Made by a program: the position numbers and the translations under genes. Shown here piece after piece: positions 2,917 through 62,508 of a DNA stretch of 64,000 nt; the stretch's first letter is position 1, and every line of letters begins with the position of its first letter. Location of the stretch: positions 1-64,000 of the forward strand of contig MPMV01000009.1 of NCBI GenBank assembly GCA_002238685.1. The letters run 5' to 3'. The DNA comes from a bacterium EF100-94H03 bin56. Lineage in GTDB: Bacteria; Pseudomonadota; Alphaproteobacteria; SP197. The notes below the pieces were generated by a model, which was given only the letters and a program-made list of their open reading frames with translations, made no database searches and had not been told where the DNA came from.

Positions 2917-3653
2917 ACGCTTTCCGACCGGGACTGAACATCGAACCTGTGGCTGGCCGCCGGGCCGATCCAGCGGTCGACGAACTCCTCGGTCCATCTC
3001 TGGATCGCCGCTTCGAGGCGATGCGCCAGACGAATCTGTTCGTCGACACCCTGGGCGCCCTCGACGCCAATGAGAGAATCGCCGGCGATCGCATCGGGGG
3101 TCAGCCGTTCGAGCCTGGCATCGGGATGGAACTGCAGTCCGTAGGCGTTCTCGCCGACACGGAAGGCCTGGACAGGGAAGTTCTCGCCCGTGGCCAGCAG
3201 GACAGCGCCGGCCGGCAGTGCCATGACACCTTCGTAGTGGGCCTGGTAGAAACACCGTGAGTCGCGAAAGAGGCTGGCACCCTCCGCAGTGGGCTCCAAG
3301 GGAAAGAAGCCGAACTCGCACAGGCCGTCCGCCCGTCCGCCCACGTCGCCGCCACAGGCGCCGGCCAGAATCTGGCACCCCATGCAGATGCCGAGGTAGG
3401 GAATGCCCCTTGCCAGGACATCGCGGACAAAGGCGATTTCCCTGCCCACCCAGGGTGGATCGTCGGGCTCGGCAACGTGGCCTTCCTCGCTGCCTCCCAC
3501 CATCACCGCTGCATAGCCATCGAGTGCGGGAAGATCATCGCCAAAGGGTGGGCACACATGATCGATCGTGTAGCCCCTGGTCCTCAGCGTGTCGGCGACC
3601 CGGCAGTCGGTCCATGCCGGATTGTGAATGATGTAGAGAATCTTCGATGTCAT
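2898..3653 (-). CDS. Class I glutamine amidotransferase (GMP synthase-like)
   Basis: Cytoplasmic type 1 GATase-like protein of 251 residues. The nucleophile elbow GICMGCQ places Cys90, and FHPD (His176, Asp178) supplies the rest; most class I GATases have FHPE, so Asp replaces the usual Glu. These stand-alone proteins resemble GuaA/gamma-glutamyl-GABA hydrolase-type enzymes; the substrate is unknown. Its ATG overlaps the end of valS by 4 bp, so the two are probably co-transcribed. The 3' end overlaps the Fic fragment by 19 bp. Confidence 0.8.
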   Translation of the reverse strand: MTSKILYIIHNPAWTDCRVADTLRTRGYTIDHVCPPFGDDLPALDGYAAVMVGGSEEGHVAEPDDPPWVGREIAFVRDVLARGIPYLGICMGCQILAGACGGDVGGRADGLCEFGFFPLEPTAEGASLFRDSRCFYQAHYEGVMALPAGAVLLATGENFPVQAFRVGENAYGLQFHPDARLERLTPDAIAGDSLIGVEGAQGVDEQIRLAHRLEAAIQRWTEEFVDRWIGPAASHRFDVQSRSESVQEAPA

Positions 3654-6316
3654 GGTGCATTCCCTGGCTGCGGGACGGCGAGACGCGCCAGGGCCTCCTC
3701 GAGGCGATGGCGTGCGTGGAGCGCCGCCTCGAGGCGTTCGCGCTGTTCCTCCACAACCTCTTCAGGGGCCCTGGACAGGAACTGCTCGTTGCCGAGCTTG
3801 CGTTCCATAACGGCAATCGACGTCCCCGTCCTGTCGATTTCCTTTTTCAATCTGGCCATCTCGGCATCGAAGTCTATGACGCCCTCAAGGGGCAACGACA
3901 CGGTGGCATCATCGAACACCACCTCCACCGAGCCTGGCGCAGCGGTCCCGCCGATGGACAAGTCGTCGAGTCGCGCCAGACGCCTGATGAGGACCATGTG
4001 GCGCTCGATCACGCGTGCGAGTGCGTCATCGGTATCGCGCACCAGAGCAGTGATCCGGCGTGCCGGTGGAACATTCAGTTCGGCCCTCACCGTCCTGATC
4101 AGAGTGACGAGACGCACCACCTGGTCCATCTCGCGTGCCGCACTCTCGTCAATCAGCCCGGAATCCGCGGCCGGCCAGGGGGCCTCGATGAGCGGCGTCT
4201 CTCGGTCGCCGTCAATCTCTCGCCACAAGGCCTCGGTGACGAAGGGCATGAAGGGGTGAAGAATCGTCAACAACTGGTCGAGCGCCCAGCCGGCGGTCTG
4301 CCTGGTCTCCACCGCCGGTCCCTCGTCGCCTTTCTCGAAGACGGGCTTGGTGAATTCGAGATACCAGTCACAAAAGACGTTCCAGATTCCCTGATAGACG
4401 GCCTGGGCGGCATCATTGAACCGGTAGGCTTCAAGAGCCTCGTCGACGCGCATGCGCAGACCCGCCACCTCGCCCACCATCCAGCGGTTCGCCGTTTCCC
4501 TGCATGTTTGCGGATCAAAGCCGGGATCGGCTCGGCATTCGTTCATCTGGCAATAGCGCGCTGCGTTCCACAGTTTTGTGGAGAAGTTGCGGTATCCCTC
4601 GACCCGCTTCTCGGAGAGGCGGATGTCACGACCGGGTGCAGCCATGGCGGCCAGCGTGAAACGCAGGGAATCAGCGCCGTAGGTCTCCATCAGTTCAAGG
4701 GGATCGATGATGTTGCCCTTCGACTTCGACATCTTGGCTCCGGAGGCGTCACGCACCAGGGCATGGATGTAGACGGTGTGGAAGGGAACGTCCCCCATGA
4801 AGTGAAGACCCATCATCATCATCCGGGCAACCCAGAAGAAAATGATGTCAAAGCCCGTCACGAGAACATCGGTGGGATAGTAGCGCTGCAATTCCGGCGT
4901 CTCATCGGGCCATCCCAGGGTTGAGAAGGGCCACAGGGCCGACGAGAACCAGGTGTCCAGCACGTCGCTGTCGCGCACGAGACCCACCTTCTCGCCATAG
5001 TGCCGGTGTGCCTTGTCACGGGCCTCCCCTGCAGTTTCCGCCACGAAGATCTCGCCGTCCGGTCCGTACCAGGCGGGAATGCGATGGCCCCACCAGAGCT
5101 GCCTGGAAATGCACCACGGCTGGATATTGTGCATCCACTGGTAATAGGTCTTGGTCCACTTCTCGGGGAGGAAGCGGGTCCGTCCCTCCTCCACCGCCTT
5201 GATGGCCGGACCGGCAAGGGTGCGTGCATCCGCGTACCACTGTTCGGTGAGGTACGGCTCGACCGGTACACCGCTGCGGTCACCAAAGGGGACGGTATGC
5301 ACGTGCTCTTCGATCCGTTCGACGAGACCGGCGGCCTCCATGTCGGAGACGACCTTCCTGCGGGCCTCGAAGCGGTCGAGACCACGGTAGGGCACGGGAA
5401 CGTTGTCATTGAGCCGGGCCCGGTGATCAAGAATGTTGATCATCTCGAGATCATGGCGGCGGCCAACTTCGAAGTCGTTGAAGTCGTGCGCCGGTGTGAT
5501 CTTGACGGCACCGCTTCCCTGTTCGGGATCGGCCCATGTATCGGCGACGATCGGGATTTTTCGGCCCACCAGGGGGAGGACGGCGTGACGCCCCACCAGC
5601 GCCGCATAACGGTCATCATCGGGATGAACGGCGATGCCGGTATCGCCCAGCATGGTTTCGGGACGGGTGGTGGCAATGGTGACGTGAAGGCCGTCCGTTC
5701 CCTCAACAGGGTACCGGAAGTACCAGAGATGACCGCGTGTCTCCCTTGCCTGGACTTCAAGATCCGAAATCGCCGTTTCCAGGCCGGGGTCCCAGTTGAC
5801 GAGCCGCTTGTCCCGGTAGATGAGGCCCTGTTCATGGAGGGTCACGAAGACCTTGATAACGGCCTTCGACAGGCCTTCGTCCATGGTGAAACGTTCGCGC
5901 GACCAGTCGGCAGAGGCGCCCAGGCGGCGAAGCTGCCGGTTGATGAGGCCGCCCGATTCCTCCTTCCACTCCCAGACCCTGTCGACGAAGGCCTCGCGGC
6001 CGATGTCGCGCCGCGTGGTCCCTTCTTCTCCGAGCTGGCGCTCGACGACCATCTGTGTCGCGATGCCGGCGTGATCCGTGCCCGGCTGCCACAACGCGTC
6101 GCGGCCCCGCATGCGCTCGTGGCGGATGAGAATGTCCTGCAGGGTATTGTTGAGGGCGTGACCCATGTGCAGGCTTCCCGTCACATTGGGTGGCGGGATG
6201 ACGATGGTGTAGGGCCGGGCGTTGTCCCGCCTGCCGATGGCAAAGGAGCCGCCGTCCTCCCACTCCTCGTAGAGACGGCTTTCCGTCGATGTGGCATCCC
6301 AGTTCTTGTGCATCAT
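3650..6316 (-). CDS. valS: Valyl-tRNA synthetase
   Basis: Class I aminoacyl-tRNA synthetase that charges tRNA-Val. The HIGH box is HMGH in PPNVTGSLHMGHALN and the KMSKS loop reads KMSKSKGN about 540 residues from the GTG at 6352. The editing domain lies between them, and the C-terminal tail ends in the coiled-coil arm typical of ValRS. The start is uncertain: an ATG pair at 6316/6313 (MMHKNWDATSTESRLYEEW) fits relatives, while an in-frame GTG at 6352 would add twelve residues. It belongs to the conserved alphaproteobacterial run pcm-tolC-popZ-valS. Confidence 0.97.
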   Translation of the reverse strand: MMHKNWDATSTESRLYEEWEDGGSFAIGRRDNARPYTIVIPPPNVTGSLHMGHALNNTLQDILIRHERMRGRDALWQPGTDHAGIATQMVVERQLGEEGTTRRDIGREAFVDRVWEWKEESGGLINRQLRRLGASADWSRERFTMDEGLSKAVIKVFVTLHEQGLIYRDKRLVNWDPGLETAISDLEVQARETRGHLWYFRYPVEGTDGLHVTIATTRPETMLGDTGIAVHPDDDRYAALVGRHAVLPLVGRKIPIVADTWADPEQGSGAVKITPAHDFNDFEVGRRHDLEMINILDHRARLNDNVPVPYRGLDRFEARRKVVSDMEAAGLVERIEEHVHTVPFGDRSGVPVEPYLTEQWYADARTLAGPAIKAVEEGRTRFLPEKWTKTYYQWMHNIQPWCISRQLWWGHRIPAWYGPDGEIFVAETAGEARDKAHRHYGEKVGLVRDSDVLDTWFSSALWPFSTLGWPDETPELQRYYPTDVLVTGFDIIFFWVARMMMMGLHFMGDVPFHTVYIHALVRDASGAKMSKSKGNIIDPLELMETYGADSLRFTLAAMAAPGRDIRLSEKRVEGYRNFSTKLWNAARYCQMNECRADPGFDPQTCRETANRWMVGEVAGLRMRVDEALEAYRFNDAAQAVYQGIWNVFCDWYLEFTKPVFEKGDEGPAVETRQTAGWALDQLLTILHPFMPFVTEALWREIDGDRETPLIEAPWPAADSGLIDESAAREMDQVVRLVTLIRTVRAELNVPPARRITALVRDTDDALARVIERHMVLIRRLARLDDLSIGGTAAPGSVEVVFDDATVSLPLEGVIDFDAEMARLKKEIDRTGTSIAVMERKLGNEQFLSRAPEEVVEEQRERLEAALHARHRLEEALARLAVPQPGNAP

Positions 6317-6352
6317 GTCGCGTTCCGTCGCACCCGGTCTGGCGGGTGGCAC

Positions 6353-6996
6353 CTGTCATCGAAAGAAAATGCTGTTGCGTGGGTAGACGTCACCAGTTTC
6401 GGGGTTTCAGCACACCGGATGTCCACCTCCGGCGTCAAACAACTGTATTGACGGACTGTTTCCCATACATGCGGGAAGATTCCGTGCCGGATACTCCCCC
6501 GTCTGCAACGCCAAGGCAAGATCGAATCGATCACCCGAACCAGCCTGATCCAGGGGAACGGCGCATCCAGCGGCCGATTGCCGCAGAGAGACGGGTTCCC
6601 CGCTTCGTCGATGAGCCGGTACCGGCCCTTCAGCGAAGCAGGGTCGTGGAGCGGATCACAATCTGCCCTTCGAAACACCGGTGTTCGAAGGCTGCAGCGA
6701 CCACCAGCCCGCTACGATCACCAGGGCGAGCAGCGCGCCATGGCTGGGAGACGCGCTGATGGGTTCCGCTCCCGGGTTGCGTCGGGCCGTGGCGGTCGAG
6801 GCCGATCGAAACACTCATGCTTCCCGGCAATACCGCAGGGGGCGAATCGCCTCCCGCTCGTGAAGCCGTTCCACGAGGAACTCGACGGCTACAAAGGTGC
6901 ATGTCGGGAATGCGCCGGGACGGTTTCCCGGTCTTTCTCGGCACTGCGTACCAGGCACTCAATCGAGGCAAGTGCCTGCGAACGTGCCTGTGATCG
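6353..6996. other. 644-bp gap upstream of valS
   Basis: No recognisable gene. Short open frames exist on both strands, one minus-strand frame encoding a single hydrophobic stretch near 6710-6760, but none has a familiar domain or a convincing start site. It presumably holds the valS promoter. Confidence 0.5.
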
Positions 6997-7563
6997 TCAC
7001 CGGGAAACAACCGCCTCCGTGCCGGCCAGCTTGCGGGCACCGAGGATCAGGCACACTCCGTGCAACAACCAGCCAACGAGCAACATCAGTCCCGAGAACA
7101 CCATGAACTCTTCCAGATTGGAAATGTGAATGTCTGTGAATTCGATCGCTATCGCGGCGGTGAACACCATGACGGCAATCAGATAGATGGAGCCGACAGC
7201 CTGCCACACGGGCGCACCGACGCGTCTACCGAATCTGATCGCAAGAATCGAGAACCACGCCCAGACCGGAAGCGCGAGAGGAGGCAGGAACACGAGTACG
7301 CCAAAGAGCCACGCGACCAACGCGTCAGCAGACCTGTAGCCGGATGCATTGAAGACCTGTTTCGTCGCCCACAGGACAAAGGCCGAACATCCCACAAAGG
7401 CGTAGTACATGACGATGATCAGCAGGGCGACCTTTCCCAGGGCTCCCTCGATGCTGGCGGGACCGGTGGAAGCCACTGATCCCACCAGAAACGCGGACGC
7501 AGGCACGATCAGGACCGTCGCGAGAGCCACGATACCGCTCGTGCGCACAGCTCTGGCCGACAT
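6997..7563 (-). CDS. Hypothetical integral membrane protein
   Basis: 188 residues with about five hydrophobic helices (near residues 10-30, 42-65, 80-105, 120-145 and 155-178), a positively charged N terminus and no catalytic motif I recognise. It sits between popZ and valS, an order that is usually contiguous in related bacteria, so it looks like an insertion into a conserved block. Coding character is supported by the regular helix pattern and a clean start. Function unknown. Confidence 0.65.
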   Translation of the reverse strand: MSARAVRTSGIVALATVLIVPASAFLVGSVASTGPASIEGALGKVALLIIVMYYAFVGCSAFVLWATKQVFNASGYRSADALVAWLFGVLVFLPPLALPVWAWFSILAIRFGRRVGAPVWQAVGSIYLIAVMVFTAAIAIEFTDIHISNLEEFMVFSGLMLLVGWLLHGVCLILGARKLAGTEAVVSR

Positions 7564-8124
7564 CGTTACTCCAGCGATGGGTTGTCACCAAACTCTCGTT
7601 CGCCGCCACCCCGGTGTCAAATCGGAACCAGGCAAGCGGATGGCGGCGCGCGCACTGCTTCCCGCTCGTCACGGTGCTTCTCCAGGATCCGGCAAATGAC
7701 GTCCTGAATCAGGTCAATCTTGCGAACATTGACCGGAAATCCGGATTGATTCCCACGGCTGTCGCCGGCGATGACCACCTGCGCGACGGCATTGGCCACG
7801 GCAGGCTTTCACCGCTACCTGATACGCCCGCACGGCCCTGGCGCCACTCCACGGTTGCGGGTCAGCCAACCTGCTTCACCGAGACTGGGGAATGGAACTC
7901 ACACTCGAAATGTCGGGTTCTCGTCTGCCATTGACGGTGAGGACATCGGCCGGCCCGGATCATAACGCATGTCCATGAATACCCTTCGGTCGTGCGGCCT
8001 CAGGGACCTCCATGAATCCTGCACCGACAATGCGCGGGGCTGCCCTTCAGACGGGAAGGCAACCGGCGGGGCGCGACCGGTTCGACGCCTGCGCAACCGC
8101 TTCATCACGGCGGCTGCCGGTCGG
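7564..8124. other. 561-bp gap between popZ and the membrane protein gene
   Basis: No gene can be supported. A short minus-strand frame at 7617-7799 has fairly protein-like composition (it includes VNVRKIDLIQDVICRIL) but matches nothing I know and lacks a good ribosome site. Confidence 0.45.
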
Positions 8125-10609: not shown

Positions 10610-10683
10610 GGCTAGGTGGCAGAGTGGTGATGCACCGGACTGCAAATCCGTTTACACCGGTTCGATTCCGGTCCTAGCCTCCA
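10610..10683 (+). tRNA. tRNA-Cys (anticodon GCA)
   Basis: A complete 74-base cloverleaf with encoded CCA. The acceptor arms are GGCTAGG (10610-10616) and CCTAGCC (10673-10679). The discriminator is T, the identity base for Cys. The anticodon loop CTGCAAA carries GCA, and the T arm contains GGTTCGATTCC. It lies between pcm and the deacylase genes with no other tRNA nearby. Confidence 0.97.
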
Positions 10684-53146: not shown

Positions 53147-53394
53147 ACGGGACGATCAGGGACGTATTGATGCCGACCCGGCCATGATGCGGGCCGGGGA
53201 GCGGATCATGGACCGCAACACGCCAACGGCGTAACTGCCAACCAGCACTCGGATGACGCTCTACACGTGTTGTGAAGCGTCGCCTTGTCGTTGCGATAAG
53301 GACTATGTTACGCGAGCTTATCCGTCCAAACCAACAGCGGGTACAGCACTGCAATGGTGAGACTATGGCGGCGCGAACAGTCGCATTCGGGGAA
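53147..53394. other. Spacer between the carboxylate-amine ligase and the transposase-like remnant
   Basis: About 250 bases with lower G+C than the surroundings and no recognisable gene. Confidence 0.4.
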
Positions 53395-53520
53395 GCAGAC
53401 GCGAGGCGGACATTCAGTGCACCAAGGGGGCGAGCGGGAGCTCGCGGCGACCTCTTCACCGTCAAAGGCAACCAGTAGACCCTGCTGAGCGATGTTCGCT
53501 TCCTGCGCGACGGACAGGCG
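53395..53520 (+). pseudogene. Possible transposase remnant (ISAs1-like DDE)
   Basis: One frame reads ADARRTFSAP, then GDLFTVKGNQ, a TAG stop (53476-53478), then TLLSDVRFLRDG. The order resembles the ISAs1-type transposase core, in which A-D-A-x-H-T-Q (catalytic Asp) is followed about 20 residues later by DYLFTVKGNQPTLLxD. The rest of the transposase is absent and no terminal inverted repeats are seen, so at most a decayed fragment. Confidence 0.35.
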
Positions 53521-53545
53521 GTACGTCGGTCGAACGCTGCTGCCA

Positions 53546-54148
53546 TCAATCCGTGTAATCCGTTTCGACAAGGCTGTAGGAACCGGCCGAAATCCGGATG
53601 ATTGCATCCTGTGGCGCCGGGAAGCCCAGAAGCGCCTCCGGATTGAGTCCGCAAGCCGCGGCGACGAACATCCGATTGAACACGCCATGGGCGATGACGA
53701 CCGTCTCATCGCCGAGATCGACGGCGGCGAGCCACGCACTTGATCGCTCAAAGACATCGCAACAGGACTCACCGCCAGGCGCGGCGTTCCGGAACGGGTC
53801 ACGACGTCGACGCTCCCAGGCCGACCGGTCGATTAGCGCCGCCTCGGTCGCCGTCATGCCCGCAAAATTGCCGTCATCAATCTCGATCAGCCTGTCGTCG
53901 AACCGAACCGTTTCCGGGGGGCGTCCCAACGCGTCGCAGATCAGACTGCAGCTTTGACGCGCGCGGCCAAGTGGACTGCACCAGATAGGGACCGTTCCGG
54001 GCTCCATCACCAGCGTCGCGAGCAGACGCCCCATGGCTCTCGCCTGGCCTACGCCGCGCTGGGTCAACGGCGAATCCTTCCGGCCCTGCATCCGGCCTGC
54101 CCGATTCCATGCCGTCTCGCCATGCCGCAACAGATAGATGATGCCCAT
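53546..54148 (-). CDS. Histidine phosphatase (phosphoglycerate mutase-like) family protein
   Basis: About 200 residues from ATG 54148 (MGIIYLLRHGETAWNRAG). The catalytic RHG motif gives the phosphorylated His; GRMQGRKDSPLTQRGVGQA follows; Glu in IEIDDGNFAGMTATEA and the second His in VVIAHGVFNRM complete the site. Relatives dephosphorylate small molecules; the substrate is unknown. The extended frame upstream of 54148 is not family-like. Confidence 0.9.
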   Translation of the reverse strand: MGIIYLLRHGETAWNRAGRMQGRKDSPLTQRGVGQARAMGRLLATLVMEPGTVPIWCSPLGRARQSCSLICDALGRPPETVRFDDRLIEIDDGNFAGMTATEAALIDRSAWERRRRDPFRNAAPGGESCCDVFERSSAWLAAVDLGDETVVIAHGVFNRMFVAAACGLNPEALLGFPAPQDAIIRISAGSYSLVETDYTD

Positions 54149-54315
54149 AAGCTCTCCGTTCGTGCAGTTTGCCATGACCACCACGCGACTTGTCGGTGTT
54201 TCGTGGTCCGAACAGAGCGCCGGAGAAGCCAATGGAAGCGTGTTCCCTACGTTCTGCCTTTATCCTCGCCGCGTGACAAGGGCGACGGCACATCGTGCTT
54301 CGTTGATGAGCGGAA

Positions 54316-54852
54316 TCAGGTGTCTGTCATCGAAGGACGAGTCCGCGAGGGTGCCGCGCTGGTTTGTGGTCTTGGTTCAGAGTGCGCATTCGCAGGCACC
54401 AGGCGAGTACGGTCGCGTGCGATAATGCAAAGCGACCGTTGGACAAGGGACCAGGAATCCGAAGACGTTTCTTGCACGGCAACCGCGCGGATGAGCCTGT
54501 CCGTCGTCTGACCGAACTTCACCAGGCAGCCGCTCGGGTCGAACACATGCAGTTCGTCCATGCCCCACGGCGTTTCGACGACCTCACCTACATCGATGCG
54601 CCTGGCGAAATCTGCATGCAGCGCATGAATGTCGTTCACACGGACGTAGCAGGAGGTGTTCTCGGCGACGTGCCTGTCCGTGCAAAGCCAGAAGTGGATC
54701 TCGATGTGCTCGCGGATGGCGATGCCGTAGTTGTGGTCGCCAAAATCATGCGTCTCGAAACCCAGCGTGTGAAAAAAGTCGAGAGAGGTCGCGATCTCCA
54801 GCGAAGCGAGCACGGGAATGGCGCGGTCCAACATGGCTGTCTTGCCCGGCAT
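54316..54852 (-). CDS. VOC/glyoxalase-bleomycin resistance-like protein with C-terminal extension
   Basis: The first ~120 residues from ATG 54852 (MPGKTAMLDRAIPVLASLEI) form a VOC domain: SLDFFHTLGFETHDFGDHNY, IHFWLCTDRHVAENTSCYVR and LHVFDPSGCLVKFGQ. Members bind metals or sequester bleomycin-type compounds. The frame then continues ~50 residues of low-complexity, Arg/Ser/Thr-rich sequence to 54316, unlike relatives, which stop near the FGQ; this may be read-through after loss of the original stop. Confidence 0.8.
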   Translation of the reverse strand: MPGKTAMLDRAIPVLASLEIATSLDFFHTLGFETHDFGDHNYGIAIREHIEIHFWLCTDRHVAENTSCYVRVNDIHALHADFARRIDVGEVVETPWGMDELHVFDPSGCLVKFGQTTDRLIRAVAVQETSSDSWSLVQRSLCIIARDRTRLVPANAHSEPRPQTSAAPSRTRPSMTDT

Positions 54853-54889
54853 CGGTCCTTTCCTTCCATTCGGAGCGTGACTGGAACAC

Positions 54890-54906
54890 GCGCAACGATG
54901 TTGCGC
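54890..54906. promoter_or_regulatory. Inverted repeat upstream of the VOC gene
   Basis: GCGCAAC, GAT, GTTGCGC: a perfect 7-bp palindrome centred 46 bp upstream of the VOC start and on the 5' side of the divergent cupin gene. Possible operator; no adjacent regulator. Confidence 0.35.
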
Positions 54907-55049
54907 CGCAGTATGTCCAGTCTGAGCTACATGGTACACAGGAGGCGATTCGGTCCCGGCGTCACGCACGCGGGATGAACGGCCAAGCGACCGCACCGCT
55001 CGGATGGCTGGACCAGGGTCCGGACTCCACCATCAAAAGAGGAGCCCCC

Positions 55050-55559
55050 ATGGAGCGCGTAGCCTCAATCATCAACCTTGCGGATATCCCCCTCGAGGCG
55101 TACGGGAAGGGCGGACACTTTGCAGCGATGCTGGGACGGGCGGGCGCGACGCTCGGAACCCGCCAGATCGGGTGTACCCTGGTTGTGCTGGAGCCCGGCA
55201 AGCGGGCGTGGCCCTACCACCTGCACTACGCGGAAGAAGAGCTCTTCGTGGTGCTGGAAGGGGAAGGCACGCTGCGCTACGACGGCGAGGAGTTCCCGGT
55301 ACGCACTGGAGACATGATCCTGACCCCGCCCGGTCCGGGCACCGCTCACCAGATCATCAACACGTCGCAGAGGAAGTTGCGCTACCTCGCCATCAGCGGA
55401 AGGCGAAGGCCGGAGGTCTGCTACTACCCGGATTCCGGAAAGTATGGCGCGTACTTCGGCGAGGGGAGGGATGACGCGTTCATCGCCAGGGATGAGAGCG
55501 CGGTCGACTACTGGCTCGACGAGTCCGTCAAGCCGCTCCCGGCCCGCTCTAGGGAGTGA
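55050..55559 (+). CDS. Cupin-domain protein
   Basis: Small beta-barrel protein of about 169 residues from ATG 55050, which has AAGAGGAG upstream. The two cupin motifs are clear: YHLHYAEEELFVVLEGEG with metal-binding His/Glu, and GDMILTPPGPGTAHQIINTS with the second His. The C-terminal part ends in VDYWLDES, found in a subgroup annotated as cupin or mannose-6-phosphate isomerase-like. Function unknown. Confidence 0.9.
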   Translation: MERVASIINLADIPLEAYGKGGHFAAMLGRAGATLGTRQIGCTLVVLEPGKRAWPYHLHYAEEELFVVLEGEGTLRYDGEEFPVRTGDMILTPPGPGTAHQIINTSQRKLRYLAISGRRRPEVCYYPDSGKYGAYFGEGRDDAFIARDESAVDYWLDESVKPLPARSRE

Positions 55560-55803
55560 ATGGTTCCGGATCTTCTCGACACTGTTCGGGTGGTGCGCGA
55601 CGGTTTGATTGCCGGCGCCGGTCTCGATGTCTTCGAGAACGAACCGACATCCGCTGACGAAACACCGGCGACGCTCGACAACGTCATCCTCGCGCCGCAC
55701 GCGCTGTGCTGGACCGGCCCGTGCTCCACAGGAAGCGGCGGCGCACCGCCCTTGCGGCCAAGCGCGGAGAGGAGCCTTCGGGAATTGTCAATCTCAAGTA
55801 TTG
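55560..55803 (+). pseudogene. C-terminal remnant of a D-2-hydroxyacid dehydrogenase
   Basis: The frame right after the cupin stop reads VVRDGLIAGAGLDVFENEP and DNVILAPHALCWTGPC, the end of the NAD-binding domain of D-isomer-specific 2-hydroxyacid dehydrogenases (normally '..L-R-D-G-x-I-A-G-A-G-L-D-V-F-E-x-E-P'). After CWTGPC the frame slips; the expected ending AAKRGEEPSGIVNLKYC is present in another frame to about 55803. The first ~240 residues are missing. Clear gene remnant. Confidence 0.75.
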
Positions 55804-55926
55804 CTGCCATGACCGGAAGTGTCGGCGCTTCGCCGACTGCCAGGCGCGATTCGGCGAGTGAACACGCCGACACATTCCTGCCCGGAACATCGGGCTGAAT
55901 GCGAACCAGGCGAGGAGACAAGAATC

Positions 55927-57372
55927 ATGGCATTACCGGGAAGCCGAAGCCTGCAGGGTGTCGCTTTCGGCCTTGCCCTTGCGGCGACGACCGGCACCGC
56001 TATTGCCCAGAGTGCAGCGGACCGGGCGGTCGAGGCGGCCAGGCAGTATGCCGGCGAAACTCTCAACGTCACCTGGGAGGCAGGCCTTCAGGCCCGGGAT
56101 CCCCTCAGTTACTCGGGCCCGCTCTGGGAGCAACTGACCGGGGTCAAGATCAATGTCGTAGAGATCCCGATCAACGAGCTCTTCACCAAGACCATCGCCG
56201 AGCACCGAGCAGGGACGGGAGCCTACGACATGCTCAGTGTCGTCCCGGCCTGGATGCCCGACATGGTCTGGGCCGGGGTGCTCGAACCCCTCGACTCCTA
56301 CATCGACAAGTACGGCTACCGCGAAGAGCTTGATGACATCGCACCGGCGTACCGCGACAACCAGATGACCTACGGCGACCAGATCTATGGTCTGCCGGAT
56401 GACGGTGATGTCTTCCTGCTCTACTACCGGGCCGATCTCTTCGGCGACGAGGCCAACCAGACGGCCTTCCACGAGGCCTATGGGTATGACCTGGCGCCAC
56501 CGAAGATCTGGGACGAGTTCTACGACATCTCGAAGTTCTTTACCGACACCGGAGGCGGTGACCTCTACGGGTCGGCGCTGATCCTCTCGCCTGGTCTTGT
56601 GCACTATCTCTACGAGATGCGGCTGAGGACTGCCGGAGGGAGGTTCTTCGATCAGGAAACCATGGTTTCGCGGATCAACAGCGACATCGCCGTGGCCGTT
56701 CTGGAAGACATGGTGCGCCAGCTCGACAACATGCCCCCCGGAGCGGCCGGCTGGGGTTCCATCGAGGTTCTCAACGCCTGGCTGGCCGGCGAGCTTGCGA
56801 TGCAGATCTGGTGGCCGCCGCCTGGGCGTTGGTCGGAGGGATACGGCGTTGATTCGGAAGCACTTTCCTGGCTCCCTGAATCGACCATTGCCGGCAATGT
56901 CGGTTACGCGCTGCCGCCTGGAGGGCATCCCGAACTTGCTGCCGGTTTCGCGCTGTGCGTGTCGTCGAACTCCGGGAACAAGGAACTCGCCTACCTCTTT
57001 GCACAGTGGCTCAACAGCCGGGACGTCAGCATTGACCGGGGCACACTGCCGTTCGCACTGCGTGATCCCTTCCGCACCTCCCACTTCAACAGCGACGAGT
57101 ACAAGGCGCTGTGGCCGGCGGCCAGGGATTACCTTGCTGCACTCGAGGACGCGGCGCAGACAGGGCTTGTCGACCTCTCGATCATCGACACCTTCGCCTA
57201 CGAGGAATCACTCACCCGTGCCATCGTGGCAGCGCTGTCGGGTCAGAATGCACGCACGGTTCTCGACCGGGCGGCCGGGGAGTGGAACGAAATCACCGAG
57301 GAGATCGGTATCGACGATCAGCGTGAGGCCTACATGATCTGGTCGTCCAAGCCGGGCGCCTATCCGAATTGA
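55927..57372 (+). CDS. ABC transporter extracellular solute-binding protein, family 1 (sugar type)
   Basis: Periplasmic binding protein of 481 residues. Signal peptide MALPGSRSLQGVAFGLALAA with cleavage after TAIAQ. The body contains WEQLTGVKINVVEIPINELF, GAYDMLSVVPAWMPDMVWAG, IYGLPDDGDVFLLYYRADLF and the C-terminal RAAGEWNEITEEIG, typical of carbohydrate or polyol importers. Normally followed by two permeases; here only a ~30-codon stub of one remains, so transport by this system is doubtful unless other permeases are used. Confidence 0.93.
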   Translation: MALPGSRSLQGVAFGLALAATTGTAIAQSAADRAVEAARQYAGETLNVTWEAGLQARDPLSYSGPLWEQLTGVKINVVEIPINELFTKTIAEHRAGTGAYDMLSVVPAWMPDMVWAGVLEPLDSYIDKYGYREELDDIAPAYRDNQMTYGDQIYGLPDDGDVFLLYYRADLFGDEANQTAFHEAYGYDLAPPKIWDEFYDISKFFTDTGGGDLYGSALILSPGLVHYLYEMRLRTAGGRFFDQETMVSRINSDIAVAVLEDMVRQLDNMPPGAAGWGSIEVLNAWLAGELAMQIWWPPPGRWSEGYGVDSEALSWLPESTIAGNVGYALPPGGHPELAAGFALCVSSNSGNKELAYLFAQWLNSRDVSIDRGTLPFALRDPFRTSHFNSDEYKALWPAARDYLAALEDAAQTGLVDLSIIDTFAYEESLTRAIVAALSGQNARTVLDRAAGEWNEITEEIGIDDQREAYMIWSSKPGAYPN

Positions 57373-57390
57373 GGCCGGCAGACGTGGCGC

Positions 57391-57413
57391 CCGGAGTGCC
57401 GGGATCACTCCGG
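57391..57413 (+). other. Intercistronic hairpin after the binding-protein gene
   Basis: CCGGAGTG and CACTCCGG pair perfectly around a 7-base loop, 18 bases after the stop codon. There is no T run, so it is not a classical terminator; such hairpins between a binding-protein gene and its permease genes commonly stabilise the 5' message and lower downstream expression. Confidence 0.5.
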
Positions 57414-57442
57414 AAACCGCCTCGGCGGGCCTATTCCATGTC

Positions 57443-57545
57443 ATGATCGTCCGATCCGGTCCAGCCAAGGCCTCAGCCCTCGATCTCTTTACCGACAGGC
57501 ATTTCCTCTGGCTGAACGTCTTGCCGGCGATCCTCGTCCTGCTCG
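57443..57545 (+). pseudogene. N-terminal stub of a sugar ABC permease
   Basis: The frame begins MIVRSGPAKASALDLFTDRH and FLWLNVLPAILVLL, as MalF-type permeases do before their first transmembrane helix (usually '..L-P-A-x-L-V-L-L-A-L-T-I-Y-P-L'). After VLL the family match stops and unrelated sequence (DAEIEALRDAADNHAF) follows in the same frame. The rest of the permease is missing. Confidence 0.55.
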
Positions 57546-57716
57546 ATGCGGAGATCGAGGCTCTTCGGGACGCCGCGGACAACCATGCCTTCACGCACGT
57601 GGCGGCCTCGCCGCTCGTCTGTCACAGGAGCTGCCAGCCTACGGAAACCTGGCCTGACGTGCCGCCCCTCGACACGCTCCCTGCACGTCTTCGCGAGGCC
57701 TTCACCGAAGCCGCCT
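57546..57716. other. Junction sequence between permease stub and BKACE remnant
   Basis: About 170 bases that remain in an open plus-strand frame (to 57907) but match no family. It separates two truncated genes facing each other and must contain at least one rearrangement point. Confidence 0.4.
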
Positions 57717-58039
57717 TCACAGCCTCAGATCAAGGATTGCTCGCGCTTCGGCAGTTGTTGCGGGATGACGGTCATATGCCCCGCACAACCCAGCTACACG
57801 CCCTGACAGCTCCGCGTTACTTGCCGCCAAGCGCGACTTGTCAAAGCGTGTGTTGTCCTCCAGCCCTGTCCGGCAGTGACCGCCCAACTCAAGCGCCCAG
57901 TGATTGACGTCGAGCTGGTCCCGCCGCGGTCCAGGTCGCGTTCGGCAGGATCTCGCGTAGCTGCGCAACTTCGAACTCCAGAACCTGCCGGCGTATCCTT
58001 CTTGCGCGGCACCGAACCGGTGATCGCGACGGTGATGAT
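57717..58039 (-). pseudogene. BKACE (3-keto-5-aminohexanoate cleavage-type) remnant
   Basis: Beta-keto-acid cleavage enzymes (DUF849) split beta-keto acids with acetyl-CoA. Minus-strand pieces of one are present in three frames: IITVAITGSVPRKKDTPA (N terminus, directly after a TGA and without a start codon), FEVAQLREILPNATWTAAG (late middle), and LDVNHWALELGGHCRTGLED with SNAELSGRVAGLC and a natural stop at 57717. About 180 residues of the barrel are missing. It lies just downstream of the SDR gene and was probably the last gene of that operon. Confidence 0.75.
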
Positions 58040-58074
58040 TCAGGGTGTTGTCAATAAGGCGGCCCCCTTTCCGT

Positions 58075-58866
58075 TCAGGATCCCGGTAACGCGTTGACCG
58101 GGACCGTGTAGTTAAGCGGCATGCGGCCACCATCGGGATAGATCACCTGACCGGTGACATAGGAGGCATCGTCGCTCGCCAAGAACGAGACGACGCCGGC
58201 CACCTCGTCGACTTCGCCACAGCGGCCCATGGGCGTGCGCGAGAGGATGCGGCGGTAGGAATCTTCGTTGGACAACACGCCCTTGCGGGTCAGGTCGGTC
58301 AGAATGGTTCCGGGACCGACCGCATTGACACGCACGTTCTGGTCAGCAAGCGCCACCGCGAAGATGCGCGTCAGCTGGTTGATGCCGGCCTTGGAGATGC
58401 CGTAGGGCACGCGATCCGGGATTGCGAGCAGCGCCTGCATCGAGGACATGTTGACGATAGCCCCACCGCTCTCCTGTCCGACCATGACGCGCGCGGCTGC
58501 CTGAGTGCCGAAGAACGTGCCCTTCAGGTTGACGCCGAGCACCAGGTCGAACTCATCCTCGCTCAAGTCGAGTACAGACTTGCCGACACTGATGCCGGCG
58601 TTGTTGACCATGATATCGAGCCGGCCAAAGGTCTCAGTCGCCAGAACGATGAGCGAGCCCATTGCGTCTTGGTCCGACACATCGGTGGCCACACCGCGCG
58701 CCGTCTCACCCGATTTGTCGAGGATGCCTGCGGCCTCCTTGACCTTGTCCTCCTGGATATCGCTCAGGACGACGCGCGCGCCCTCGGCATGGAGTCGCGC
58801 CGCGCATGCAAGTCCGATACCTTGTGCGGCGCCCGTCACAACCGCCACTTTTCCTTCATGTTTCAT
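58075..58866 (-). CDS. SDR-family oxidoreductase
   Basis: Classical SDR of about 263 residues from ATG 58866. VTGAAQGIGLACAARLHAEG, VVLSDIQEDKV (NAD-preferring Asp), NNAGISVG, the Ser in IVNMSSMQALL, Tyr-x3-Lys in YGISKAGINQL, and VGPGTILTDL are present. It lies 13 bases after hyuB on the same strand. With the BKACE remnant downstream, a 3-hydroxyacid dehydrogenase role is plausible but inferred. Confidence 0.93.
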   Translation of the reverse strand: MKHEGKVAVVTGAAQGIGLACAARLHAEGARVVLSDIQEDKVKEAAGILDKSGETARGVATDVSDQDAMGSLIVLATETFGRLDIMVNNAGISVGKSVLDLSEDEFDLVLGVNLKGTFFGTQAAARVMVGQESGGAIVNMSSMQALLAIPDRVPYGISKAGINQLTRIFAVALADQNVRVNAVGPGTILTDLTRKGVLSNEDSYRRILSRTPMGRCGEVDEVAGVVSFLASDDASYVTGQVIYPDGGRMPLNYTVPVNALPGS

Positions 58867-58879
58867 GATGCTCTCACCC

Positions 58880-60442
58880 TCAAATGTCTCCATCCGTAGC
58901 GCCGAACCCGCCGCCTCCGCCGGTCTCGATCACCACAGTGTCACCCTTGCTGATAATCTGCTGCCCGGCCGAGGCGACCGCTTGGCCGTTGATCTCGAAT
59001 CGCGCCGGTTTGCCCGGCTCGCCCTCCGCCAAACCGGGCGCCGGGCTGTTGATCCGGTTGACCATGAACGAACCGATGGCCGGTGTCTCGCCCAGCATTT
59101 CGAAGGCAAAACGCAACCCATCGCCGCCCTGCCGTTGACCCTTTCCGCCGCTGCCACGACAAATTGAGCGCTCGATAACCCTGAGAGGCGCTTGGTTCTC
59201 GATCACCTCGATCGGCGTATTGGAAAGATTGCTCGGAAAGCTGATCGCCGATGCGCCGTTCTGTGCGGCGCCGGCACCCTGGCCCGCGCCCAGGAAACAG
59301 TTGACCGCATAGCGCACGCCGCCACGCGATGACGCCAGCTGCACGTTGTTCGACGGCGAGCCGGGCGCTGCCTGGGCGCGCTCCGGCAACGCGTCCGCCA
59401 GCGCGCCGAAGATCGCGGGCGGCAGCAGATGGCCGATCATGCCGCGCGCGCCGCACGGCGCCGGGCGTTGCGGGTTCAGGATCGACCCTTCCGGCGCAGT
59501 GACGCGAATCGGCACGAAGCTGCCGTGACTGTTCGGTATCCATGGCGCCAGCAATGCCTTCAGGCCATAAGCGCTATAAGCAAAGGTGTAGTTGAGCACC
59601 GTGTTGATGGCGAGCGGGACCTGATCGCTCGAACCCGCGTAGTCGACAGAGATCTCGTCATCATCAACGGTCACCGCGCAGACGATTCGGATGATGCCAC
59701 CGGGCATCTCGGCCGGACCGTCATTCTCGATCGCGTAATGATAGGTGCCCGGGGTCAGTTGACGGATTGCCTCGCGCATCGCCCCTTCGGTGCGACTGAT
59801 GATCTCGGTGGAGAAACGGTCGAGATCAATGTCGGTTTCGTCAAGCAAACCGCCAAGGCGTTCACCCAGGGTACGGCAGCACGCGACCATCGCCCAGATA
59901 TCGCCGATAGTTTCGTCAGGGACGCGGACGTTCTGGCGGATCAGCGCCGTCAGCGTTTCGTCCGGCTGGCCCGCCTTCAGCAACGGCCATGGCGGTATCT
60001 GGAGGCCTTCCTCGAAGAGCTCGCGGTTGGCGGCATTGCGCAACCGGCCGCCGACATCCGGCAGATGACTGACGACACCGGCAAAGGCGATGACCTCGCC
60101 ATCGCGCATGATTGGCATGGCGATGGTGGCGTCGTTCAGGTGACCGCTGCCCAACCAGGGGTCGTTGGTGATATAGGCATCACCCTGCTCCATCGTGTCG
60201 ATGCTGTGGTGCGCGATGAAGGTGCGAATGGTCATCGGCACGGTGGCGATAAAGCTCGGGATGCTCTGCGACGACTGAGCGATGTTGTGGCCATGGCGGT
60301 CGGTCAACACGACGGCAAAGTCGTTGGCTTCGCGCACCAGGGTCGAGAACGACGCGCGGACAAAGGTCGCTGCCGCCTCGTCGACGACACTGATCAGCCG
60401 TGTCCAGACAATCTCCAGCGTCACCGGATCGATGGCCGTCAT
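58880..60442 (-). CDS. hyuB: Hydantoinase B/oxoprolinase-family protein
   Basis: Larger catalytic partner of HyuA in ATP-dependent N-methylhydantoinase/oxoprolinase/acetophenone carboxylase-type enzymes. 520 residues: MTAIDPVTLEIVWTRLISVV, NDPWLGSGHLNDATIAMPI, SHLPDVGGRLRNAANRELFE and the Gly-rich IETGGGGGFGATDGDI ending. The start overlaps the hyuA stop by 4 bp. The symbol is by homology; the substrate is not known. Confidence 0.93.
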   Translation of the reverse strand: MTAIDPVTLEIVWTRLISVVDEAAATFVRASFSTLVREANDFAVVLTDRHGHNIAQSSQSIPSFIATVPMTIRTFIAHHSIDTMEQGDAYITNDPWLGSGHLNDATIAMPIMRDGEVIAFAGVVSHLPDVGGRLRNAANRELFEEGLQIPPWPLLKAGQPDETLTALIRQNVRVPDETIGDIWAMVACCRTLGERLGGLLDETDIDLDRFSTEIISRTEGAMREAIRQLTPGTYHYAIENDGPAEMPGGIIRIVCAVTVDDDEISVDYAGSSDQVPLAINTVLNYTFAYSAYGLKALLAPWIPNSHGSFVPIRVTAPEGSILNPQRPAPCGARGMIGHLLPPAIFGALADALPERAQAAPGSPSNNVQLASSRGGVRYAVNCFLGAGQGAGAAQNGASAISFPSNLSNTPIEVIENQAPLRVIERSICRGSGGKGQRQGGDGLRFAFEMLGETPAIGSFMVNRINSPAPGLAEGEPGKPARFEINGQAVASAGQQIISKGDTVVIETGGGGGFGATDGDI

Positions 60443-62508
60443 ACGCTGACCTCCGTCAACACGACCTCAACACTACCGTCTTCCAACACCGCGACATCGG
60501 CCGGATAGGCGACGACCAACGTCGACTCAGGCTCGACCATCACAAGCGGTCCCTCCAGGCTCGTACCCGCCGAAAGGGTGTAGCGGTCATAAACCGGCAC
60601 CTCGTCAAAACCCTTGGAAGCCGGCAGGTATATCGCGCGCGATGACCCCATGACATCGCCGGGCTCCGCTGCGTCGAGCGCAAAGGATCGGGGCAGCATC
60701 GGCGAGGTGCCGACCAAACGCCAGGTGACGACCTCCGGAACGCCGCCTGGCACCAAACGGCCAAAGGTCTTGTTATAGGCGGCTTCGAATCCGGCCAGAA
60801 CTGCGCTGCGTTCTGGCTTGGCATCAATCGGCACGTCGACCGTGTTGCCCTGGCCTACATAGCGAACCTCAGCCGTCGCACGCCACTCGACAGTGCAAGA
60901 GTCGATACCGGCAGAGGCAAGCTCGGCCCCCGCCGATACACGCGCGTCGTCAAGCCGTAGTGCGACAGCATCCATATCAACGTCCGAAAGTGGCTCGACC
61001 TTAGACCACGAACGGTCGCTGCGCGCGGGCGCGGCCAAGAAGCCAAGGCACGAACCGACCCCGGACGCGACCGGGCAGACGATGCGCCGTATCCGCAGGC
61101 GCCGCGCGACGTCGACCGCGTGCACCGGACCGGCGCCGCCGGTGGCGATCATCGCGAAACGGCGGGCATCGTGCCCTTTTTCGGCGATGTGGGTGCGCGC
61201 GGCCGCCGCCATGTTTTCGTTGACGATGTCGTGGATACCCCACGCGGTTGCGATGGTATCGAGGCCAATCGCCTTGCCGGTGTCCGTCAACACATGGTAG
61301 GCGCGGCCAACGTCGAGTTTCATACGCCCGCCAAGAAAGCTCTCGGAATCAAGGTAACCAAGCACCAGATCGGCGTCGGTCACGGTTGCGGTCTCGCCGC
61401 CCAGGCCATAACAGGCCGGTCCCGGCTCCGACCCAGCGCTGTCGGGACCCACCTGGAGCAGGCCGAGGCCATCGATCCGGGCAATCGAGCCGCCGCCGGC
61501 GCCGATCTCTATCAAATCGATGGACGGCGACTTCGCGGGCAGGCCGCTGCCTCGCTTGAACCGATGTTCGCGAGCGAACTCGAAGAGGTGCGTGATCTCA
61601 GGCTTGCCGTCCACGGCAAGACAGGACTTCGCCGTCGTGCCGCCCATGTCGAACGCGAGCAAGCGATCAATGGTGTTGACCGCACCACAGTTGATGGCGC
61701 TCAGCACGCCGCCAGCCGGTCCCGATTCGAGCAGACGGATCGGAAATCGCGCTGCCTGCTCGGCATCGGTGAACCCACCGTTGGACACCATGATGTCGAT
61801 CCGTCCGTCGACCCCCAGATCGCGCAAGCGGCGGTCCAGCATGCCGAGATAACGCGCAACCTTGGGCTGAACATAGGCGTTGGCCGCCACGGTTGACATT
61901 CGCTCGTATTCGCCGATCTCCGCGGCTAGTTCAGACGACAAGGTGATCGGAAGTTCTGGTGCCGCCGCTTCCATGACATTGGCGACTTTCTGTTCGTTGT
62001 CACCGGAAACTGCAGCGTGCAGAAGGCAAACTCCGACCGCCTCGGCGCCCGACGTTGCGACAGCAGTCACGACATCGGCCAGCTCCGCCTGGTTGACGGA
62101 TTGCCAAGGCAACCCGTCAGGTCCGATGCGGCACGAGACCTCGTAACGGTCGTCCGGCGCGACCAGCGGCGGCGGAAACGTGATGGTGAGATCGTAGATG
62201 TCGTAGCGAAGCTCGCGGCGGATATCGAGCGTGTCGCGGGTGCCGCAGTTGACGATCAGCGCGACTCGCGAACCCTTGCGCTCCAAGAGCGTGTTCGTGA
62301 TCAGCGTGGTGCCGTGCACGACTCGCGTGACCGTCCTGTCATCATCGGGTTTCTGGGCCAGAAGCTGTCGCACGACATCGGCGATACCGTTGCCCGGATC
62401 ATCATTGGTTGTCAGGGTCTTGCCGACCCAGATCCGGTGACTGGCCTCATCCAGCAGCACACCATCAGTAAACGTGCCGCCGATATCGACCGCAATCTGA
62501 TAGCTCAC
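60439..62508 (-). CDS. hyuA: Hydantoinase A/oxoprolinase-family protein
   Basis: ATP-binding subunit partner of HyuB, 689 residues, full length. N-terminal IAVDIGGTFTDGVLLDEASH (phosphate-binding), VVHGTTLITNTLLERKG, LLAFDMGGTTAKSCLAVDG and the C-terminal barrel ending ESTLVVAYPADVAVLEDGSV. Overlaps both neighbours by 4 bp. It differs strongly from the 520-residue orphan at 29619, so the two are separate acquisitions. Confidence 0.94.
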   Translation of the reverse strand: MSYQIAVDIGGTFTDGVLLDEASHRIWVGKTLTTNDDPGNGIADVVRQLLAQKPDDDRTVTRVVHGTTLITNTLLERKGSRVALIVNCGTRDTLDIRRELRYDIYDLTITFPPPLVAPDDRYEVSCRIGPDGLPWQSVNQAELADVVTAVATSGAEAVGVCLLHAAVSGDNEQKVANVMEAAAPELPITLSSELAAEIGEYERMSTVAANAYVQPKVARYLGMLDRRLRDLGVDGRIDIMVSNGGFTDAEQAARFPIRLLESGPAGGVLSAINCGAVNTIDRLLAFDMGGTTAKSCLAVDGKPEITHLFEFAREHRFKRGSGLPAKSPSIDLIEIGAGGGSIARIDGLGLLQVGPDSAGSEPGPACYGLGGETATVTDADLVLGYLDSESFLGGRMKLDVGRAYHVLTDTGKAIGLDTIATAWGIHDIVNENMAAAARTHIAEKGHDARRFAMIATGGAGPVHAVDVARRLRIRRIVCPVASGVGSCLGFLAAPARSDRSWSKVEPLSDVDMDAVALRLDDARVSAGAELASAGIDSCTVEWRATAEVRYVGQGNTVDVPIDAKPERSAVLAGFEAAYNKTFGRLVPGGVPEVVTWRLVGTSPMLPRSFALDAAEPGDVMGSSRAIYLPASKGFDEVPVYDRYTLSAGTSLEGPLVMVEPESTLVVAYPADVAVLEDGSVEVVLTEVSV

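Follow-up and report, generated by a model that had tools for sequence, protein, structure and literature searches.

An intact solute-binding protein gene in a layered deletion scar, probably kept by selection as an orphan after loss of its transporter

The window, that is, the whole stretch of 64,000 bp analysed here, corresponds to bases 1-64000 of contig C33 (122,224 bp) of G000, a draft genome of 4.53 Mb in 102 contigs (98.45% complete, estimated contamination 4.2). It contains an intact gene for a solute-binding protein (SBP) surrounded by gene fragments. We interpret this region, with a probability of roughly 0.8, as a layered deletion scar in which the SBP was kept by selection as an orphan after the loss of its transporter. 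Comparison with relatives shows that an ancestral operon of the order dehydrogenase-SBP-MalF-MalG-MalK-lactonase, followed by zwf, was destroyed in the G000 lineage. The sequence between two short repeats (3.8 kb by comparison with G006), comprising malG and malK in full, the greater part of malF and half of the lactonase gene, has been lost, as has the front of the dehydrogenase gene, and a ~30-kb catabolic segment now stands in place of the rest of the lactonase gene. The SBP was retained amid these deletions, and likewise in two sister species with different deletions; after the decay of its partners it stayed, on statistical evidence, under purifying selection, and it would still work as an orphan SBP. 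How orphan SBPs come about is as a rule deduced from the end result alone. Orphan SBPs are already known, and as a scar the region is ordinary; of interest is the set of sister scars, in which four sister species provide an intact operon and three differently gutted versions of it, with remnants that can be used as a neutral clock.

The SBP was searched for in 61 genomes, ten of them from the genus of G000 (G000 included), with one genome per species throughout. A close SBP was found in four of the 61, all of the same genus, namely G000 itself and G006, G007 and G001 (85-90% identity), and the remaining listed matches did not exceed 41% identity. A scan of genome contigs returned six loci, three that appear to be those of G007, G006 and G001 and three from more distant relatives, L026, L027 and L028 (76-77%). 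MalFGK is kept at four of the seven loci with this SBP and absent at three. The sequence-only reading of this DNA had proposed looking for relatives with complete permeases or a complete BKACE gene, and both exist: the former in G006, L026, L027 and L028, the latter in G015. In G006 the whole operon lies on one strand, as follows.

293-1348, 2-hydroxyacid dehydrogenase
1414-2859, SBP
2929-3840, MalF
3837-4682, MalG
4684-5790, MalK
5787-7781, D-apionate-lactonase-like (ApnL-like) protein, 664 aa

The last of these genes is followed on the opposite strand by zwf (identified as G6PD from a Pfam match of the G001 copy). The ApnL model NF049900 aligns with residues 9-609 of the complete G006 lactonase, and we term the enzyme ApnL-like only, because its score of 592.8 bits lies under the curated equivalog cut-off of 750; about 60 of its codons are left in the window. 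SBP, MalF, MalG and MalK are encoded in this order at L026, L027 and L028, where ApnL-like and dehydrogenase genes are nearby in other arrangements.

The corresponding part of the window contains the following features.

53190-55586, extra 2.4-kb segment: histidine phosphatase, 178-aa ORF without Pfam match, cupin (blastn collinearity, Pfam)
55587-55858, plus strand, dehydrogenase remnant, codons 258-351, with two 5-bp deletions (tblastn and codon alignment with G006; PF02826, 8.7e-8)
55927-57372, plus strand, intact SBP, 481 aa, sole full survivor of the operon (SBP_bac_1, 6e-27; 90% identity to the G006 SBP; purifying selection)
57391-57413, plus strand, SBP-malF intercistronic hairpin with an 8-bp stem (folding)
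57443-57544, plus strand, malF remnant, codons 1-34 (79% aa identity to G006 MalF)
57538-57544, plus strand, junction 1, 7-bp repeat (alignment with G006)
57539-57715, plus strand, ApnL-like remnant, codons 339 to about 400 (70-72% aa and 81% nt identity to G006)
57715/57716, junction 2, where the lactonase remnant abuts the BKACE 3' end with zero bases between; left edge of the ~30-kb segment
57716-58054, minus strand, BKACE pseudogene in three pieces (PF05853, 7e-18; alignment to the intact 275-aa G015 gene)
58075-58893, minus strand, intact short-chain dehydrogenase (SDR), upstream neighbour of BKACE (Pfam; order as in G015)
58880-60442, minus strand, hydantoinase B/oxoprolinase subunit (Pfam; G015 synteny)
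60439-62508, minus strand, hydantoinase A/oxoprolinase subunit (Pfam; G015 synteny at the 3' part, where the G015 contig ends)

The SBP scores 95.8 bits against SBP_bac_1 (cut-off 26). Of the transport operon, malG and malK are thus gone altogether, along with the greater part of malF and of the lactonase gene and the front of the dehydrogenase gene. In agreement with the sequence-only reading, the SBP gene is followed by a hairpin and by a stretch of MalF-type codons, 34 of them against the 30 or so it had estimated. The hairpin folds just modestly better than shuffled sequences (z -1.9); where the operon is intact, the hairpins predicted at the corresponding place gave z values of -4.9 (G006), -4.6 (L026), -3.7 (L027) and -2.6 (L028). 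The next 170 bp, which had been taken for sequence of no known kind, are codons ~340-400 of the ApnL-like gene (57545-57715), and this argues that junction 1 is a deletion within one operon and not a misjoin. The window matches G006 up to 57544, and again from 57538 but 3776 bp further on. The seven bases shared by both matches are present at both ends of the deletion in G006 (3024-3030 and 6800-6806) and as a single copy in the window; a match of at least 7 bp at a random pair of breakpoints in the malF and ApnL-like genes has a chance of 0.00086 (200,000 draws). Junction 1 thus fits a deletion between short direct repeats, the ancestral bases being deduced from G006, which is 10-20% diverged. 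It may have arisen in one step or in two, and a two-step deletion would make the 7-bp match a coincidence.

Two sister species carry other scars of the same operon. The order in G001 is ligase, SBP, malF codons 5 to ~86, ApnL-like codons ~42 to ~106 and zwf; the hairpin and the first malF codons are missing, and similarity to malF begins right after the SBP stop codon. The order in G007 is a small dehydrogenase scrap, SBP, an ApnL-like scrap of ~20 codons (near codons 506-526, ~25 bp past the SBP stop codon) and a pfkB-family kinase scrap of about 108 bp, and no malF, malG or malK sequence was found at this locus. G001 keeps malF codons that the window is without and the window keeps ApnL-like codons that G001 is without, so that neither scar derives from the other. 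The SBP has been spared at all three gutted loci.

Gene trees were built from gyrB (757 codons) and rpoB (842 codons); G008 was badly aligned in rpoB (extreme branch), the partial G009 was omitted, and G002 was omitted for rpoB (no match). G001 grouped with G006 in both trees (support 100 for gyrB and 81 for rpoB). A grouping of G000 with G007 was obtained with rpoB (93) and with the concatenation (84) but not with gyrB. Since G001 groups with G006, and G006 is intact, the loss in G001 and that in the G000/G007 line, at least two in number, look independent unless G006 regained the operon. The first loss may have been common to G000 and G007. Two observations on the SBP itself bear on this point. 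The outgroup is attached to the G006 branch in the SBP tree (95% support), which would permit one shared loss, and the dS of the SBP between G001 and G006 (0.40) is about double that of gyrB, rpoB, zwf and the SDR gene (0.16-0.25). One of these two species may have received its present SBP gene by transfer in place of the former copy, in which case the argument for independent losses would be weaker, or codon usage may have loosened.

Some minor differences between these species were also seen. G006 and G007 keep only a scrap of the pfkB-family gene (L036 9494-9521; L037, reverse complement of 7219-7326), and in both the match to G000 breaks off at nearly the same position (C33 89312-89313), even though these two species are not sisters by gyrB and rpoB. 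After the scrap, G006 joins directly to an SDR gene that lies 8 kb further on in G000. The only zwf match of G007 (C56:51859-53322) is 72% identical, where the copies of G000 and G006 reach 92-96%, and has one in-frame TGA, as a different or decaying copy would. Finally, rpoB of G000, G006 and G007 was matched in two pieces inside one open frame of 1618 codons (L085/L090 on G000:C57, L084/L091 on G006:C258 and L086/L089 on G007:C33), which in G000 are separated by about 600 bases without a match; this insertion was not seen in G003, G004, G005 and G008.

Selection on the SBP was analysed with a seven-taxon codon model written for this work. All four SBPs of the genus have 481 codons and were compared codon by codon over that length. 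Omega was estimated at 0.165 on the orphan branches and 0.033 on the others (lnL -5815.1, versus -5851.2 with one ratio), and omega of 1 on the orphan branches was rejected (lnL -5915.0, 2dlnL 199.8). The gyrB/rpoB topology gave omegas of 0.166 and 0.033 (lnL -5815.7, versus -5853.1 with one ratio), and here too omega of 1 on the orphan branches was rejected (lnL -5901.3, 2dlnL 171.2). Fixing omega at 1 on the G000 branch alone gave 2dlnL values of 15.5 and, on the gyrB/rpoB topology, 15.1. A window-only fit with three taxa, in which omega of 1 for the SBP costs a 2dlnL of 4.5, is probably affected by a far outgroup so saturated that synonymous changes are unplaceable. Omega is about five times higher on the orphan branches than on the others, so constraint has loosened. 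The orphan branches also include time before the loss, so that part of the low omega is inherited, and for this reason the remnants were used as a clock.

Remnants and SBP were fitted on the same branch, with branch times common to both. For the remnants in the window (182 codons) omega was 0.44, which is indistinguishable from 1 (2dlnL 2.1), for the SBP it was 0.14, and a common omega for both was rejected (2dlnL 20.3, p 7e-6); the malF part of these remnants is short (34 codons, with 7 aa changes and no indel). In G001 the remnants (139 codons, one in-frame stop left out) gave 0.66 (2dlnL 3.0 versus 1) and the SBP 0.15, and a common omega was again rejected (2dlnL 60.7, p 7e-15). The distribution of differences to G006 over the three codon positions points in the same direction: 32, 35 and 33 in the G001 remnants and 43, 29 and 113 in the G001 SBP (113 of 185 at third positions), 19, 27 and 41 versus 31, 15 and 94 in the window, and 6, 8 and 8 versus 28, 14 and 109 in G007. 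The remnants have taken four indel events in 564 aligned columns in the window (two 2-bp gaps in the ApnL-like remnant are perhaps a choice of the alignment), six in 430 in G001 and two in 128 in G007. The SBPs have none in 1443 bp each, where 10.2, 20.1 and 22.5 would be expected at the remnant rates of the window, G001 and G007, respectively; the dehydrogenase gene may, however, not have decayed at the same time as the permease genes. Pairwise dN/dS is 0.115-0.209 for the SBP versus 0.070-0.153 for its neighbours zwf, ligase and SDR. The SBP is thus kept under somewhat loosened constraint, nearly as its ordinary neighbours are, and the remnants evolve like pseudogenes. Statistically, purifying selection on the SBP continued after its partners had become pseudogenes, with caveats on the dating.

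The SBP might instead simply be the next gene to go, if the operon was lost so recently that a useless SBP has had too little time to break. The roughly five-fold relaxation of its constraint would suit this explanation, and an omega of 0.1-0.2 on the orphan branches could result from a long phase under constraint combined with a short neutral one. We nevertheless regard it as unlikely, as the same branches gave the remnants enough time for two to six indel events and near-neutral substitution, with no indel in the SBP. The excess of third-position differences in the G001 SBP compared with the even spread in its remnants, the sparing of the SBP at three of three gutted loci, and pairwise dN/dS values near those of ordinary neighbours likewise argue against it.

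Retention by selection raises the matter of what the SBP does. Because sister species lost the operon at different breakpoints yet kept the SBP, it probably still functions without its own transporter, perhaps via another one. Among proteins of solved structure it comes closest to family-1 SBPs, including several of the maltose or trehalose type, at weak similarity (best 2.5e-9). No cognate permease or ATPase was found in searches for MalF genome-wide and for MalG and MalK on contig C33, where it should be noted that at 98.45% completeness a missed permease copy is possible. There are 14 MalF matches in G000, one of which is the remnant, and the eight strongest others were compared by eye with the list of SBP matches: for seven there is a PF01547 match no more than 4 kb away, and for the one at C97:20314 there is none within about 8 kb. 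The idea that the missing MalF or lactonase gene survives elsewhere in G000 was rejected, since no close MalF copy was found (best other relative 36% identical) and no other lactonase copy is present in G000 at E 0.001, nor is there one in G007.

The most likely way for the SBP to function would be delivery of its ligand to another CUT1-type ABC permease, for example a second MalFGK system that is encoded beside a mannitol-dehydrogenase gene, ~4 kb from the SBP in G001. This second permease is 67-100% identical across G000, G001 and G007, which are all the species with an orphan SBP; in the rest of the genus (seven genomes) a match at E 1e-30 was obtained for G006 alone, and that one is 35% identical. 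The second system has its own SBP, and the orphan would be an additional one. The orphan SBP may therefore feed the second MalFGK system and widen its substrate range, a hint that comes from four informative species. As a separate observation, the SBP-MalF-MalG-MalK operon of this second system is inverted in G001 with respect to G000 relative to its flanks (L038 6654-10553; G000:C33 90917-94884). A signalling role may be considered as a second option; no sensor kinase was seen by eye in lists of the nearest ORFs of the three scarred loci. That the SBP came through separate losses by acquiring a job for which its own transporter is not needed is a possible but tentative account.

A search of the literature on orphan SBPs yielded precedents, none of them on this locus. 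BraC3 of Rhizobium leguminosarum is an orphan SBP that uses the Bra complex (PMC2978685). Its gene too lies outside an own transporter operon and has been kept in the genome; the difference is that the partner of BraC3 has been demonstrated, whereas for the window SBP it is the loss of the original permease that is visible in the DNA. For MsBP of marine Synechococcus and other orphan SBPs, PMC8938411 and PMC8786288 discuss possible co-option of other transporters or stress functions. MsBP is also a sugar-type SBP outside a transporter operon, but it belongs to a conserved non-transport operon, whereas the window SBP is surrounded by decayed pieces of its own operon. Orphan SBPs of Pseudomonas aeruginosa were studied in relation to sensor kinases (PMC11113362), unlike here, where none was seen near the scarred loci. 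If the SBP is really in use, these species would allow a direct test of the re-assignment of an SBP to another ABC transporter or receptor, and they would be a warning that permeases missing beside an SBP need not mean an assembly error.

The right-hand part of the scar has a history of its own. Three pieces of a BKACE gene on the other strand, as had been read from the sequence, were found on the minus strand between 58054 and 57716. Compared with G015, a member of another genus of the same family, the gene begins with TTG in place of ATG, runs into a stop at codon 5 and has lost ~480 bp internally and 11 bp in another deletion; its reading frame is not intact, and it is therefore a pseudogene with a surviving 3' end. 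The C-terminal piece alone matches PF05853 with 65.3 bits (cut-off 24.8). That both a transport and a catabolic operon had lost their ends at the same place was thus right for the former but not for BKACE, which has kept its stop codon (57719-57717) and has lost its middle. In G015 the genes stand in matching order, from the end of hydantoinase A through hydantoinase B and SDR to an intact BKACE gene, and this stretch is 84% identical to the window over 3.05 kb. We also considered that BKACE acts in the same pathway as the SBP operon but found no support for this: the 7.6-kb contig that carries the G015 cluster is not one of those for which an SBP match was listed in that genome.

ApnL-like similarity stops at 57715 and BKACE similarity starts at 57716, just outside the BKACE stop codon. 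The zwf gene, which directly follows the ApnL-like gene in G006 and its remnant in G001, is located in G000 at 87697-89151, on the same contig and strand; therefore G000 has an extra segment of ~30 kb (57716-87675) that G001 and G006 do not have between lactonase and zwf. Because the ApnL-like gene is intact in G006, the simpler reading would be an insertion in the G000 lineage. The genes of the segment (21 scanned of 24 ORFs of at least 90 aa) are mostly catabolic and transport genes, for example for thiolase, CoA-transferase, enoyl-CoA hydratase, a TPP enzyme, MTTB, an FMN oxidoreductase, two S15 peptidases, TRAP DctM and SBP_bac_8. No integrase or transposase families were detected among these 21 of 24 ORFs, and the sole tRNA of the 64-kb window is at 10610. 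The extra 2.4-kb segment, which sits between a GCS2-family ligase gene and the dehydrogenase remnant, is not there in G001 and G007.

Judged from these alignments, the scar comprises at least four lesions (junction 1, junction 2, the internal deletion in BKACE and the truncated dehydrogenase gene) and is not a single event. The sequence-only reading had offered a large deletion, a transfer junction and a contig misjoin. Deletion holds for the transport operon at junction 1, and the edge of a transferred or inserted segment is right in kind at junction 2, because the ~30-kb segment is absent there in G001 and G006. One large deletion between converging operons was rejected: a stretch of lactonase sequence lies between them, and zwf is 30 kb off on the same contig.

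A joining of unrelated contigs at the scar is highly improbable as an explanation of the whole. It could be suspected from the draft state of the genome (102 contigs, estimated contamination 4.2), and relatives with the same truncated arrangement, which would have spoken against a misjoin, do not occur among the nine other genomes of the genus: neither junction 2 nor the malF-ApnL join is present in any of them. Set against this, base composition, whose comparison left and right of the scar had been proposed, is even across it without a jump. Furthermore, the two genes that meet at junction 1 belong to the same operon and have kept its order and strand; zwf, which borders the operon on the right in G006 and G001, is found on the same contig and strand past the 30-kb segment; and sister genomes carry different scars of the same operon. 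The small indels in the BKACE and dehydrogenase remnants are also those of aged pseudogenes. Given the common operon, order and strand, the aged remnants and the sister scars, a misjoin would be very unlikely at junction 1, and it is unlikely at junction 2.

At junction 1, malF and ApnL-like codons are joined in frame, and the resulting open frame of 154 aa (57443-57907) runs antisense to the BKACE remnant. That this fused MalF(1-34)-lactonase(339-400) frame is a new functional protein is scarcely credible: it is open across junction 1 and beyond, but it has no Pfam family above its cut-off, the joined sequence occurs in none of the nine other genomes of the genus, its last part (57716-57907) is antisense to BKACE, the amino acid is changed in 20 of 91 codons compared with G006, and its lactonase part has taken two indel events.
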